From positions 1-40,975 of the forward strand of contig JAGXTJ010000028.1 in NCBI GenBank assembly GCA_018333655.1: DNA of 40,975 nt. Direction: 5' to 3'. The position numbers and the translations under genes are program-made. The DNA comes from Bacillota bacterium (GTDB lineage: Bacteria; Bacillota; UBA994). The notes beneath the pieces were generated by a model. It did not search any database and had not been told where the DNA came from. It saw only the letters and a program-made list of their open reading frames with translations. How positions within the stretch are numbered: position 1 is the first letter of the stretch; each line of letters starts with the position of its first letter. This document shows positions 1-3,106 of the stretch, in pieces.

Positions 1-1
1 C

Positions 2-109
2 AAAGTTAAGGATGACGACAAAGTTAAGGATGACGACAAAGTTAAGGATGACGACAAAGTTAAGGATGACGACAAAGTTAAGGATGACGACAAAGTTAAG
101 GATGACGAC
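2..109 (+). repeat. Tandem 18-bp coding repeat (six perfect units, KVKDDD)
   Basis: Six identical 18-bp units start at 2, 20, 38, 56, 74 and 92, and the array probably continues left of the window. The period is six codons, so copy number can change without breaking the frame. Diverged units continue to about 235. Perfect identity at synonymous positions points to recent slippage or unequal recombination. Confidence 0.9.
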
Positions 110-385
110 AAAGGCAAAGATGTCGATGAAGTTAATAATAACGACAAAATTAAGGACAATGACCGAGTTAAAGACAATGACAGAGCTAAGGGCAATGACG
201 ACATTAAGGACGACGACAAAGTTAAGGATAGTGACGAAACTCAGGAAGATGCTGACGAGAAGAAAGACCGGCCTGCGCAGAAGACTGTGCAACGCCCTAG
301 CGACAAAGACCAAGATGGACCAGAAGACGAGCCTCGCGCCGGCGATAGTGACAGGGATGACGATGAAGATGGGGGCGACGAGTAA
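2..385 (+). CDS. Partial C-terminal tail of an acidic Asp/Lys-rich repeat protein
   Basis: Only the last ~127 codons are in the window; the start lies beyond the left edge. Read in the frame beginning at base 2, the first 108 bases are six perfect 18-bp units encoding Lys-Val-Lys-Asp-Asp-Asp. Degenerate KIKDND/RVKDND/DIKDDD units follow, then a more mixed acidic tail with some Pro and Arg, ending at TAA 383-385. The frame choice rests on the composition matching the acidic tail of the next gene, and on the other open frame here giving only a monotonous Met-Thr-Thr-Lys-Leu-Arg string. No catalytic domain is visible. By analogy with its neighbour it may be the tail of a secreted or RsgI-like protein, but that is inference. 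The function of the tail is unknown; cation or wall-polymer binding would fit its charge. Confidence 0.7.
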   Translation, partial: KVKDDDKVKDDDKVKDDDKVKDDDKVKDDDKVKDDDKGKDVDEVNNNDKIKDNDRVKDNDRAKGNDDIKDDDKVKDSDETQEDADEKKDRPAQKTVQRPSDKDQDGPEDEPRAGDSDRDDDEDGGDE

Positions 386-436
386 AACTTTTCTCTCGGT
401 GAGAGTGCAACCTTTTGTCGGGGAGTGCATTATCTA

Positions 437-468
437 GGTAAAGGCCGAGAATAGTCTTGGCCTTTACC
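437..468 (+). terminator. Strong hairpin between the two acidic-tail genes
   Basis: Perfect arms GGTAAAGGCC (437-446) and GGCCTTTACC (459-468) extend inward by four more pairs (one G-T) to a loop of about four bases, giving a ~14-bp stem. No T-run follows; instead the ribosome site GAAGGAG (471-477) of the next gene begins three bases later. It could be a weak terminator for the upstream gene, an mRNA-stabilising or processing hairpin, or a regulator of translation of the downstream gene. The structure is seen; the role is inferred. Confidence 0.55.
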
Positions 469-485
469 ATGAAGGAGTGATTAAA

Positions 486-1802
486 TTGTTAAAATCTCGA
501 GCTGCTAAGCTCACCGCGTTGACCCTGGTCGCCGCTCTCTTGTTCGCTGGCTACACTACATATTCGGCGCCGAGGGCTTTCGCCGAACTGACGGTTCAAG
601 TAAATCCGGAAATTGTACTCACTCTCGATCAACACCAAAAGGTACTGGCAGCCCGCTTTACGGGGCTTCTGGCTCACCCTACTTTAGGAGACCTTGCCCT
701 AGTCAATCTATCTGTGGGCGAGGCCTTAGATAAAGTGAACGCGGCCCTCACTGTACTAGGCCTCTTAACACCAGACCGGGAGGTATTGATTGTCGTCAAT
801 CCCGTGGGCGGTGCCAATAGCGAAAAGGTGCAGGGCATTGCCGCTGCGGCCGAGGAGAAGCTTAAGACCCATCTCAAGCAGCAAGCTAATCTCCCTCCTG
901 CTGTCACCTCTGTTCTCGTCAGCACCCCCCTCACTGAAGTAGCACAGCAACTCTCAATTCCACTGAGTTCTTTCGCTCGCTTTCTCCGCAAAGGGGTTAC
1001 GGAGGCCAATCTGACCGCCATTATGGCGCTGCAGGATGGGCTTAAATTAGACGCGGCAGCCTTTGCACAAGAGTTTAACAAAGTGGTCAAGTCCTTTGCC
1101 GATATGCGCGAGGCAGGTCTGCCTGAGGACACGGCACTAGCCCTACTCTCGGAGTCCCTGCAACTTGATGGCGCACTAAAGAATGTGTACCACCTCGTCT
1201 CCGGCTTGATAGATATGCACGAAGCTGGCCTATCCCCAAGCGATATGTCGGCCGCTCTAGAACTGCATCGCGACCTCAAGCTCTCGCCCTCCTTGCTCCG
1301 CCGGGAGTCAGATTCTCTCTTCTCCTCCCTGATCGACATGCACGAAGTCGGTGTTCCTAGCGCTGTCGCCCTCTCCACTCTCCAGGCGGCCATGCTGGCT
1401 GACCCCTCCCTTAAAGAAATCGACACCATTGTCTCTGCCCTGATTGATCTTGTTGACAAAGGCGCCACCGCCGAAGTCGCCTTGGCCAGTATAAATACCG
1501 CCATCAGTGCCGATCCCACCTTGAAGAACCTGGATGGAATGCTGGGCCTTAGCCCCGGACGTGGACGCTCTGACGACGATGATGATAAGAACAATGAGAA
1601 TAAAGGCCAAGGCCGCCGCGACAAAGATGACAAGTCAGACGATAACGACGAAGACGAAGAGGACCAAGACGACCAAGACGACCAAGACGACCAAGACAAA
1701 GATGATAACGATGACGAAAGGGACGACAAAGACAAGGACAAAGACGACGATGATAAATCCGACAATAAGAACTTGCCAAAAGGCAGAGGGCGCGGCAACT
1801 AA
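486..1802 (+). CDS. Secreted protein: RsgI-like domain, four helical repeats, acidic tail
   Basis: The TTG at 486 is preferred because GAAGGAG (471-477) sits 8 bases upstream; the in-frame GTG at 477 overlaps that ribosome site. The ~438-residue product has a basic N-terminus, a hydrophobic stretch (~9-23) and an AFA-E signal-peptidase-like site near residue 33, so it is probably exported. Residues ~35-130 (VNPEIVLTLDQHQKV, then a Val/Leu-rich strand-helix pattern) resemble the extracytoplasmic domain of RsgI-type anti-sigma factors. No cytoplasmic sigma-binding domain is present. Residues ~195-350 are four ~39-residue helical repeats marked by LIDMHEAG-like motifs. From ~362 on it is almost pure Asp/Lys/Asn/Glu, including DQD repeats, ending in a basic GRGRGN. 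It follows a gene with a similar tail, so the two may be related. The function is unknown; a surface or cation-binding role is a guess. Confidence 0.75.
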   Translation: MLKSRAAKLTALTLVAALLFAGYTTYSAPRAFAELTVQVNPEIVLTLDQHQKVLAARFTGLLAHPTLGDLALVNLSVGEALDKVNAALTVLGLLTPDREVLIVVNPVGGANSEKVQGIAAAAEEKLKTHLKQQANLPPAVTSVLVSTPLTEVAQQLSIPLSSFARFLRKGVTEANLTAIMALQDGLKLDAAAFAQEFNKVVKSFADMREAGLPEDTALALLSESLQLDGALKNVYHLVSGLIDMHEAGLSPSDMSAALELHRDLKLSPSLLRRESDSLFSSLIDMHEVGVPSAVALSTLQAAMLADPSLKEIDTIVSALIDLVDKGATAEVALASINTAISADPTLKNLDGMLGLSPGRGRSDDDDDKNNENKGQGRRDKDDKSDDNDEDEEDQDDQDDQDDQDKDDNDDERDDKDKDKDDDDKSDNKNLPKGRGRGN

Positions 1803-1845: not shown

Positions 1846-1901
1846 ACTCACACAATAAAAGGCTGCCCCGAAGTTGCGGGGCAGCCTTTTGTTGTGTGAG
1901 T
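1846..1901. terminator. Bidirectional terminator between convergent genes
   Basis: A long inverted repeat: outer arms ACTCACACAA and TTGTGTGAGT, inner arms AAAAGGCTGCCCCG (1857-1870) and CGGGGCAGCCTTTT (1877-1890), loop AAGTTG. The A/T flanks give a T-run on both strands, so it can terminate the acidic-tail gene (+) and the encapsulin operon (-), whose stop codon is five bases away. Confidence 0.88.
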
Positions 1902-1905
1902 AAGT

Positions 1906-2742
1906 TTAGGCAAAAACCACAATGGCGTCTTTTCTCTTGATGCGCAACATCACCGTCTCGAGCACGCGCAGGCTGTGGTTTAGCTTGTCGGGGCCTAGGT
2001 AGCCCGTAATCATATCCTGCCCGATAACGAGATCCATGTTTTGTGCTTCACTGCATACCAGGACAGCGGAATTGGTGCCGAGAACAGCAGATTGGAATAA
2101 CTGGCCATCAACCAACTTGCCCACCCGCTCGGACTCGAGCAAGCCAGTGTGCGGTTGCACACGCTGCATTTGCCGATAAAGGTCTGGGCTTACGACCAAG
2201 GCAAAATTGCTCACCAAGCCGTTGCCGACTAGGATTTCGATCCCCCGGGCGACGTCTGTAAAAGCCGTCTCGCCTTCGGCCCAGTTGCCTTTGGCGATTT
2301 TTTCGACTCCGGTGGCAGTTAGCAACCCCTCATAGCCTTGTTCAAGATTGCCAAGGAAAATAAGCTCATCTTCCTTCTTGGCACATATGGCAGCAGCCCC
2401 GGCCACGCTCGATAAATCGAGCGGCAGATTGAACTGCGCACTATGTTCGACATCGCGCCACGTGATCTTAAAGTCCTTGTACACCATCGGAATCTCCATG
2501 AAACGCCGACTCTTAACGCCCAAAGGAAAACACTCGTTCTCCCCAAAAAACTCGATATGACCGCAGTCCGTGGAGTCAAAAGAATCTATGTTGATGCTCT
2601 GCACACCCGCACCTAGTGGACCATAAAGGCTAATAAAACGTCTGCCCACCAGTACTTGGCGCGCGATTTTGACTACCTTATCGTCTATTTTGGCCCATTG
2701 CTCCAAGGAAAATGGCGCGTCCTGCCTTGACAAGAATTCCAT
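1906..2742 (-). CDS. Encapsulin shell protein (family 1, linocin M18-like)
   Basis: The protein self-assembles into an HK97-fold icosahedral nanocompartment that encloses cargo enzymes in the cytoplasm. The 278-residue product starts MEFLSRQDAPFSLEQWAKID, matching the classic encapsulin N-terminus (MEFL.R..AP....QW..ID in the Thermotoga maritima protein). It also shows the family's GR.F....GP.G segment, a conserved DLSS stretch, EDE.IF.G, and GQD...GY in the A-domain/C-terminal part. The ATG at 2742 is chosen over GTG 2751 because AGGGAGG lies just upstream of it and it restores the canonical MEFL start. It is 13 bases downstream of the ferritin-like cargo gene in the same operon, the usual cargo-then-shell order. 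The family usually stores iron or buffers oxidative stress. A Trp lies near the flavin-binding Trp region of the Thermotoga shell, but flavin binding is not established here. Confidence 0.95.
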   Translation of the reverse strand: MEFLSRQDAPFSLEQWAKIDDKVVKIARQVLVGRRFISLYGPLGAGVQSINIDSFDSTDCGHIEFFGENECFPLGVKSRRFMEIPMVYKDFKITWRDVEHSAQFNLPLDLSSVAGAAAICAKKEDELIFLGNLEQGYEGLLTATGVEKIAKGNWAEGETAFTDVARGIEILVGNGLVSNFALVVSPDLYRQMQRVQPHTGLLESERVGKLVDGQLFQSAVLGTNSAVLVCSEAQNMDLVIGQDMITGYLGPDKLNHSLRVLETVMLRIKRKDAIVVFA

Positions 2743-2755
2743 ATTGCGCACCTCC

Positions 2756-3106
2756 CTACTCTTTCTTGAGACTGCCGATGGTCGCGCGCCCAGTAGAACT
2801 TATACCGAGGGACTCTAGCATTTCTCTAACTTCGCCTTCGCCTTCAGCAAAATGCTCGGCCTCTTGCGGGTCTAAATGCCGCAGCAGGGCCATTAGTTCA
2901 CCCACATGAACTTTTTCTTCGTCGCGGATGTCGCCAATAACCTTCTTGGCCACTGGGTCATCCGTGGCTAAGACATGCGCATCATAGACAAAGATGGCTT
3001 CGAGTTCTCCGGCAATATTGAGGCGGATGGCCTGAATAAGCTCTTCTTTGGATATCTTTCTGTTGACATTGCCTTGGAACGGATTAGCAAAATTTGGCAC
3101 GTGCAC
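2756..3106 (-). CDS. Encapsulated ferritin-like cargo protein (EncFtn/Flp)
   Basis: A small two-helix ferroxidase of 116 residues. It has the EncFtn ligand pattern Glu34, Glu64 and His67 (AGELEAIFVY and RDEEKVHVGE), with the same 30+3 residue spacing as the characterised Rhodospirillum protein, plus Tyr41 at the matching aromatic position. The C-terminus ends in a flexible stretch and TIGSLKKE, a typical encapsulin cargo-loading peptide, so the product should be packaged by the shell encoded directly downstream. As known for the family, it should oxidise Fe(II) and deliver mineral to the capsid lumen. The GTG at 3106 follows AAGGAAGG; a second in-frame GTG at 3100 is also possible. Confidence 0.93.
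   Translation of the reverse strand: MHVPNFANPFQGNVNRKISKEELIQAIRLNIAGELEAIFVYDAHVLATDDPVAKKVIGDIRDEEKVHVGELMALLRHLDPQEAEHFAEGEGEVREMLESLGISSTGRATIGSLKKE

Follow-up and report, generated by a model that had tools for sequence, protein, structure and literature searches.

The window analyzed here is the entire contig C28 (40,975 nucleotides) of a Bacillota genome, G000, and coordinates refer to it unless another contig or locus is named. At its left edge lies part of a three-gene arrangement (ECF-type sigma factor, gene 1, and gene 2), the first two genes of which start on a second contig, C57 (Table 1). The edge falls within an 18-bp tandem repeat, and C57 terminates in the identical repeat; the final 82 bases of C57 are identical to the opening 82 bases of the window, with the repeat in the same frame. 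In the relative G002, a single contig carries a divergent NhaC-like gene, followed by the sigma factor, gene 1, gene 2, a copper-amine-oxidase-N-like gene, the encapsulin gene, and, beyond it, ferritin-like, DUF554-like, cysteine desulfurase-like, and ParB-like genes (several of these neighbor names, assigned by eye and recall, are presumptive). This order equals that of C57 followed by the window, and gene 1 therefore begins on C57; the G000 operon spans the contig break, and the length of the gene 1 tail given below counts the window part only. The sequence-only reading would have been refuted had the first tail belonged to an unrelated cytoplasmic protein; such an owner was rejected, both by the 82-base overlap and by the membrane RsgI_M protein found beside the sigma factor on C57. 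Minus-strand open reading frames (ORFs) across the repeat were likewise rejected, because gene 1 of the relatives enters its acidic tail in the plus frame. The probable operon terminator downstream of gene 2 includes a short terminator-like match at 1873-1885.

Table 1. Features of the locus in the window and on contig C57
Feature	Coordinates	Strand	Basis or remark
ECF sigma gene	C57 29616-30377 (= L002 541-1302)	+	Regions 2 and 4
Gene 1, N-terminal part	G000:C57 30378-31337 (L002 from 1303)	+	Directly 3' of sigma gene
18-bp tandem repeat, KVKDDD units	1..229	+	12.7 copies; assembly break point
Gene 1, C-terminal part (polyacidic Asp/Lys tail)	2-385	+	Repeat, overlap, frame, synteny with G002 and G001
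Promoter-like element TGCAACCTTT-N14-TTATCT ahead of gene 2	406..435	+	Common to relatives' leaders
14-bp near-perfect hairpin in gene 2 leader, just 5' of ribosome site	437..468	+	Leader z -4.2
Gene 2, RsgI_M protein (exported or anchored) bearing helical repeats and an acidic tail	477..1802	+	441-aa ORF
Gene 2, signal peptide or membrane anchor	486..575	+	AFA immediately ahead of first strand
Gene 2, RsgI_M domain (self-cleaving type, SEA-like)	588..962	+	PF23750 and fold
Gene 2, Asn-Pro codons, position of RsgI self-cleavage site	603..608	+	Conservation and PDB chain starts
Gene 2, helical-repeat region, four motif copies	924..1541	+	Motif and structure model
Gene 2, polyacidic tail	1557..1799	+	Composition
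Probable operon terminator, strong hairpin with T-rich end	1847..1900	+	Adjoins convergent encapsulin gene

Both proteins end in long Asp/Lys-rich tails. The window part of the gene 1 tail comprises 127 residues (36% Asp, 20% Lys, net charge -23), and the gene 2 tail (residues 361 to 441) contains 41% Asp and 69% D/E/K/R, with a net charge of -20. When all window ORFs that reach 100 aa (67 in number) are ranked by D+E content over 80 residues, these two come first (0.49 and 0.45), the third-highest value being 0.26, and the claim of two adjacent genes with extreme acidic C termini is thereby upheld. Acidic tails recur in gene 1 and in most gene 2 proteins of the relatives; the gene-2-like proteins at L046 and L053 are nearly tail-less.

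Most of the architecture that the sequence-only reading had assigned to gene 2 was recovered. The RsgI-like domain corresponds to residues 38 to 161, which match the Pfam family RsgI_M (PF23750) with 29.8 bits against a curated cut-off of 25.3, and the four helical repeats appear as a D[ML]-x-[ED]-x-G motif that recurs at residues 209, 246, 287, and 324; in the predicted structure, residues 150 to 355 are all helical (mean pLDDT 87.1). The repeats belong to no Pfam family at E values up to 10, giving weak matches only (e.g., T2SSF, 0.1), and structure comparison pairs them with helical repeats of designed proteins (8v2d, Z = 12.1; 5cwc, Z = 10.3), which may reflect just a common arrangement. 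The proposed signal peptide stands as a hydrophobic N-terminal stretch preceded by about 8 residues, and both a cleaved and an anchored form are compatible with it; the AFA motif is no proof of signal-peptidase cleavage, because membrane-anchored RsgI proteins show similar AxA motifs. With so few residues ahead of the stretch, the protein lacks a cytoplasmic anti-sigma domain, as had been suspected. Translation likelier starts at the TTG at 486, located 8 nt behind an AAGGAG, than at 477.

Gene 1 encodes an N-in membrane protein with about 67 residues ahead of a hydrophobic helix, beyond which lie an RsgI_M domain (42.1 bits versus the cut-off of 25.3), a short helical region, and the acidic tail; this RsgI_M domain is invisible from the window because the N terminus is on another contig. 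Gene 1 proteins in the window's genus are without most of the helical repeats. Across 11 aligned rows of the cytoplasmic part, four residues never vary (L13, P19, L30, and L34), and P24, K27, and L35 are almost invariant. Neither Pfam, at E values up to 1, nor the solved structures offer a relative of the N-terminal domain, and its model is poor (pLDDT of about 44 to 68); three gene 1 proteins scanned at E values up to 1 matched RsgI_M only, with no RsgI N-terminal domain. Ten of the 249 phylum genomes searched with a profile of this N terminus gave matches, each at the same locus type, and no independent anti-sigma example was therefore gained. Position and topology make gene 1 the probable anti-sigma factor of the adjoining ECF sigma factor.

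The sigma factor contains Pfam regions 2 and 4 only (45.2 and 55.8 bits) and matches the sigma70-ECF model with 96.1 bits (cut-off, 42.9), whereas SigI factors are without sigma4 (PMC4711584). A genome-wide profile search of G000 gave no SigI above the cut-off, and only two RsgI_M domains are found in that genome, those of gene 1 and gene 2. Thirty distinct loci were sorted into 27 with SigI and an RsgI N terminus, two with an ECF sigma factor and another N terminus, one stand-alone, and none mixed; the sorting profiles were home-made from L020 to L025 and the family's own operons, so that matches at those loci arise by construction and the independent cases are 22 SigI loci and one ECF locus (L088). 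The home-made RsgI N-terminal profile was silent at the ECF loci. The same division is seen in a tree of 45 RsgI_M domains, in which 21 RsgI domains (from 21 of the 27 sorted RsgI loci) split from 24 ECF-type domains with support of 100/99. Within the ECF-type part, eight gene 1 rows (90/73) and seven gene 2 rows plus the stand-alone protein of G046 (91/77) form sister groups, and three gene 1 rows (G004, G037, and G218) fall outside the main gene 1 group; support for the sister relationship is moderate, with gene 2 forming a single group in only 66% of bootstrap trees.

The Asn-Pro pair at the RsgI self-cleavage position is kept in the alignments in 13/13 gene-2-like rows, 24/24 ECF-type domains, and 20/21 RsgI rows, and the structure models place it in the turn joining strands 1 and 2. 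Both models resemble Bacillus subtilis RsgI (8t9n), with Z = 16.1 over 110 residues (2.0 Å) for gene 1 and Z = 14.5 over 109 residues (2.3 Å) for gene 2. The profiles of both genes align to PDB chains 8u9o_B, 8her_B, 8hep_B, 8heq_B, and 8hdj_B from their first residue, which is the Pro of Asn-Pro; chains beginning exactly at this Pro come from the RsgI2, RsgI1, RsgI6, and RsgI9 domains, and we read these B chains as C-terminal products of cut RsgI domains. This correspondence suggests that the ectodomains of gene 1 and gene 2 are likewise self-cleaved at Asn-Pro. A natural RsgI relative located beside a SigI gene (L098 955-2184, minus strand) carries Gly-Pro in place of Asn-Pro and, judging from its sequence, is perhaps a non-cleaving variant like RsgI8.

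The gene 2 leaders of 7/7 genomes have TGCAACCT in common, and the exact 10-mer TGCAACCTTT occurs 39 times in eight genomes. Fourteen of these sites lie 50 to 134 nt ahead of gene 1, gene 2, or a stand-alone paralogue, and in 13 of them TTRT begins 24 nt downstream of the first T, with TTTA in the remaining one; 19 of the other 25 sites were inspected, all of them without the second half. A weight matrix trained on the 14 sites recovered the element at all but one of 10 held-out genes, the exception being gene 1 of G004, with a background fraction of at most 0.0068; the background was drawn from partly overlapping loci and includes some true sites (maximum, 19.3). By the same matrix, G004 alone among 11 genomes has the element ahead of its sigma gene; distances are approximate for G005_orph, G046_g1, G001_sig, G003_sig, and G046_sig, whose start positions are off the start codon. 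The strict pattern TGCAACYYNT-N14-TTRTD, which the window's own element misses by its last base, matched 23 sites in 11 genomes, compared with one for the reversed pattern. Seventeen of them are at gene 1, gene 2, or paralogues, the G004 sigma gene counted in, and six are elsewhere, comprising one in G218 and five that look like chance. The second anti-sigma-like gene of G004 is without the element.

For gene 1, the element is embedded in the 3' end of the sigma coding sequence, with about 50 nt between it and the gene 1 start, and a search for an ECF-type promoter motif ahead of the sigma genes gave no match. ECF -35 boxes carry AAC, and the usual ECF -10 sequence is CGTC. The element has AAC in its -35-like part and TTATA or TTATG as its -10 part; since the latter is not CGTC, another sigma factor could use it, and dependence on this ECF sigma factor is a prediction from the sequence pattern. 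Its occurrence at gene 1, gene 2, and the paralogues but not at the sigma gene suggests one regulon with negative feedback, because activation from a promoter inside the sigma gene would raise the brake and its copies, not the sigma factor. The hairpin in the window's gene 2 leader is placed at the expected transcript start and is absent in G001 and G002 of the same genus. A secreted protein encoded close to the sigma locus of G218 (L159 1580-2527, plus strand) has a perfect copy of the element ahead of it; RsgI_M is not evident in this protein, which is possibly a further regulon member.

The gene 2 profile matches 10 of 15 genomes in the class sample, all eight of the family included, with G008 and G010 matching through SigI/RsgI pairs; in the phylum sample, 97 of 398 genomes match at an E value of 1e-15, mostly across RsgI_M only. 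Full-length gene-2-type proteins occur in the eight family genomes and G046. Seven of the eight family genomes show the order sigma-gene 1-gene 2, G000 being counted although its copy is split by the contig break. In G004, the sigma gene stands between two anti-sigma-like proteins bearing helical repeats, with a genuine SigI/RsgI pair elsewhere, and G037, G046, and G218 have the sigma gene and gene 1. Stand-alone paralogues distant from any sigma gene, with the promoter-like element, are present in G005, G006, G007, and G046. Scanning a genome collection with the window protein returned no relative; an alignment of narrower scope returned three MAGs, GPS119, HKB212, and UBA994.

Taken together, we favor an envelope-signaling operon composed of an ECF sigma factor, a self-cleaving RsgI-type anti-sigma factor (gene 1), and an exported paralogue without the anti-sigma part (gene 2), with a probability of roughly 0.68. 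As described in PMC12203970 and PMC10202637, the periplasmic domain of RsgI cuts itself and the halves hold together until dissociation, upon which RseP/RasP and ClpXP finish the degradation; for B. subtilis RsgI, sensing of peptidoglycan gaps by the disordered tail has been proposed (PMC10128001 and PMC13059805). G000 encodes ClpX (664.3 bits) as well as a protease of the M50 family (200.6 bits). By sequence, gene 1 appears to hold every part needed for this path, and gene 2 all but the anti-sigma part; that gene 1 is a self-cut ECF anti-sigma factor we regard as quite likely.

By analogy with RsgI, the cytoplasmic domain of gene 1 would bind the sigma factor, a single membrane helix would connect it to the RsgI_M ectodomain, and the disordered Asp/Lys tail would reach into the wall; the tails possibly contact the wall as an RsgI-type sensing tail does. 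The ectodomain would be cut constitutively at Asn-Pro with its halves staying associated, and a pull or a wall change sensed via the tail (the signal presumably being force or a wall gap) would strip off the cut ectodomain. The site-2 protease would then cleave the membrane stub, ClpXP would degrade the remainder, and the released sigma factor would activate the conserved promoter ahead of gene 1, gene 2, and the scattered paralogues. Its own inhibitor and free sensor-like ectodomains would rise, so that the response is damped and the same wall sites are occupied or shielded. Gene 2, a paralogue that would have retained the signal or anchor, RsgI_M, helical repeats, and acidic tail and lost the anti-sigma part, would be a regulon product outside the cell, acting as a decoy or co-sensor or as a wall-binding effector, about evenly between the two.

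The arrangement shares with the SigI/RsgI systems of B. subtilis and Clostridium thermocellum the RsgI_M ectodomain, the Asn-Pro position, the membrane helix, a disordered or sensor C terminus, a sigma gene just upstream, and an M50 protease and ClpX in the genome. It differs in that the sigma factor is of the ECF type, the gene 1 cytoplasmic domain gives no match to its RsgI counterpart, the tail is polyacidic, the next gene encodes an exported paralogue, and the RsgI_M domains form their own group in the tree. Like ECF sigma/membrane anti-sigma pairs controlled by regulated intramembrane proteolysis, it combines a sigma gene with a downstream gene for a single-pass N-in membrane protein and has an AAC-containing -35-like element; unlike in those pairs, the ectodomain is of the self-cleaving RsgI type and, in 10/11 genomes, the element precedes the inhibitor, at the sigma gene's 3' end, and not the sigma gene itself. 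RsgI9, an orphan RsgI of C. thermocellum, has no adjacent sigma gene, as is the case for the stand-alone paralogues, and among PDB entries its structure 8u9o matches the gene 2 profile best; however, RsgI9 keeps a long cytoplasmic part (PMC12203970), whereas gene 2 and its paralogues have about 5 to 8 residues ahead of the hydrophobic stretch.

In the open-licence papers searched, judged by title or by individual passages, we found no description of an ECF sigma factor paired with an RsgI_M anti-sigma factor, although the key papers on the self-cleaving domain may mention one. RsgI-type self-cleaving domains are known as SigI partners that sense wall gaps or polysaccharides, and here one accompanies a different sigma class and cytoplasmic domain. 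If the signaling reading is true, the sensor is a portable part, and its force-sensing logic becomes testable in a second, independent setting. The promoter embedded in the sigma gene predicts a negative-feedback loop, and paralogues under one promoter raise the question of why a cell would export copies of its own sensor.

How gene 2 acts can be read in more than one way. It might be a decoy or co-receptor that pairs with gene 1, or competes with it for its wall ligand, and so sets the threshold of sigma activation, a possibility we put forward tentatively. The sister grouping of gene 1 and gene 2 (90/73 and 91/77), their same type of promoter-like element, and the helical repeats on the anti-sigma-like proteins of G004 are consistent with this; in the window's genus, however, gene 1 is without most repeats, so that a shared ligand would have to be contacted via RsgI_M or the tail.

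Gene 2 and its paralogues could instead be effectors: polyanions that, once secreted, would bind Ca2+/Mg2+ or polymer of the wall and protect the wall in alkaline water, with RsgI_M as no more than a folded, self-cut linker. We consider this somewhat unlikely. The tails are indeed high in Asp and of low complexity, and the sigma-distant paralogues of G005, G006, G007, and G046 bear the promoter-like element. The Cedars and Hakuba are alkaline springs of pH 10.7 to 11.9 (PMC9751293), and the relatives GPS119 and HKB212 may come from such hyperalkaline springs, given the resemblance of their labels to those in that source. On the other hand, conservation of Asn-Pro and of the entire fold goes beyond the needs of a linker, the sigma-adjacent gene 1 with its cytoplasmic domain bears the same type of tail, and the gene-2-like L046 and L053 proteins have almost none. 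The binding of cations, minerals, or wall polymer, which the sequence-only reading had offered as a possible role, gained no direct support; operon context, fold, and the shared promoter-like element point to envelope signaling.

The envelope-signaling reading might be carried further, to a sigma factor whose detectable regulon consists almost only of RsgI-type ectodomain proteins and whose self-cut, acidic-tailed probes are spent as decoys or gap fillers, forming a wall-tension homeostat for very alkaline habitats; this extension is speculative, and we think it improbable. An ordinary SigI/RsgI pair of degraded sequence, with which the locus has the RsgI_M domain, the Asn-Pro site, and an RsgI-like fold in common, is highly improbable and was rejected on region 4, the ECF match, the locus sorting (0/30 mixed), the genome-wide SigI search, the gene 1 proteins scanned for an RsgI N-terminal domain, and the tree.

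Several neighbors of the operon recur among the relatives. A 463-aa antiporter, which by eye we take to be NhaC-like, is divergent from the sigma gene in 3/3 genomes of the genus (L042 5949-7340, minus strand; L044 4288-5679, minus strand; L045 3558-4949, plus strand). In three related genomes, what are presumably an ABC ATPase and an ABC-2-like permease lie directly 3' of gene 2 (L048 11047-12779, L051 5610-7399, and L055 1-1616), and a response regulator and a histidine kinase, also named by eye, are divergent upstream of the sigma gene. Convergent with gene 2 in the window, at 1906-3106 on the minus strand, is an encapsulin gene (Linocin_M18, 232.8 bits) preceded by a small ferritin-like protein with EncFtn-like and COQ7 matches; the same order is found in G002, and by sequence the two probably form an encapsulin-cargo pair.
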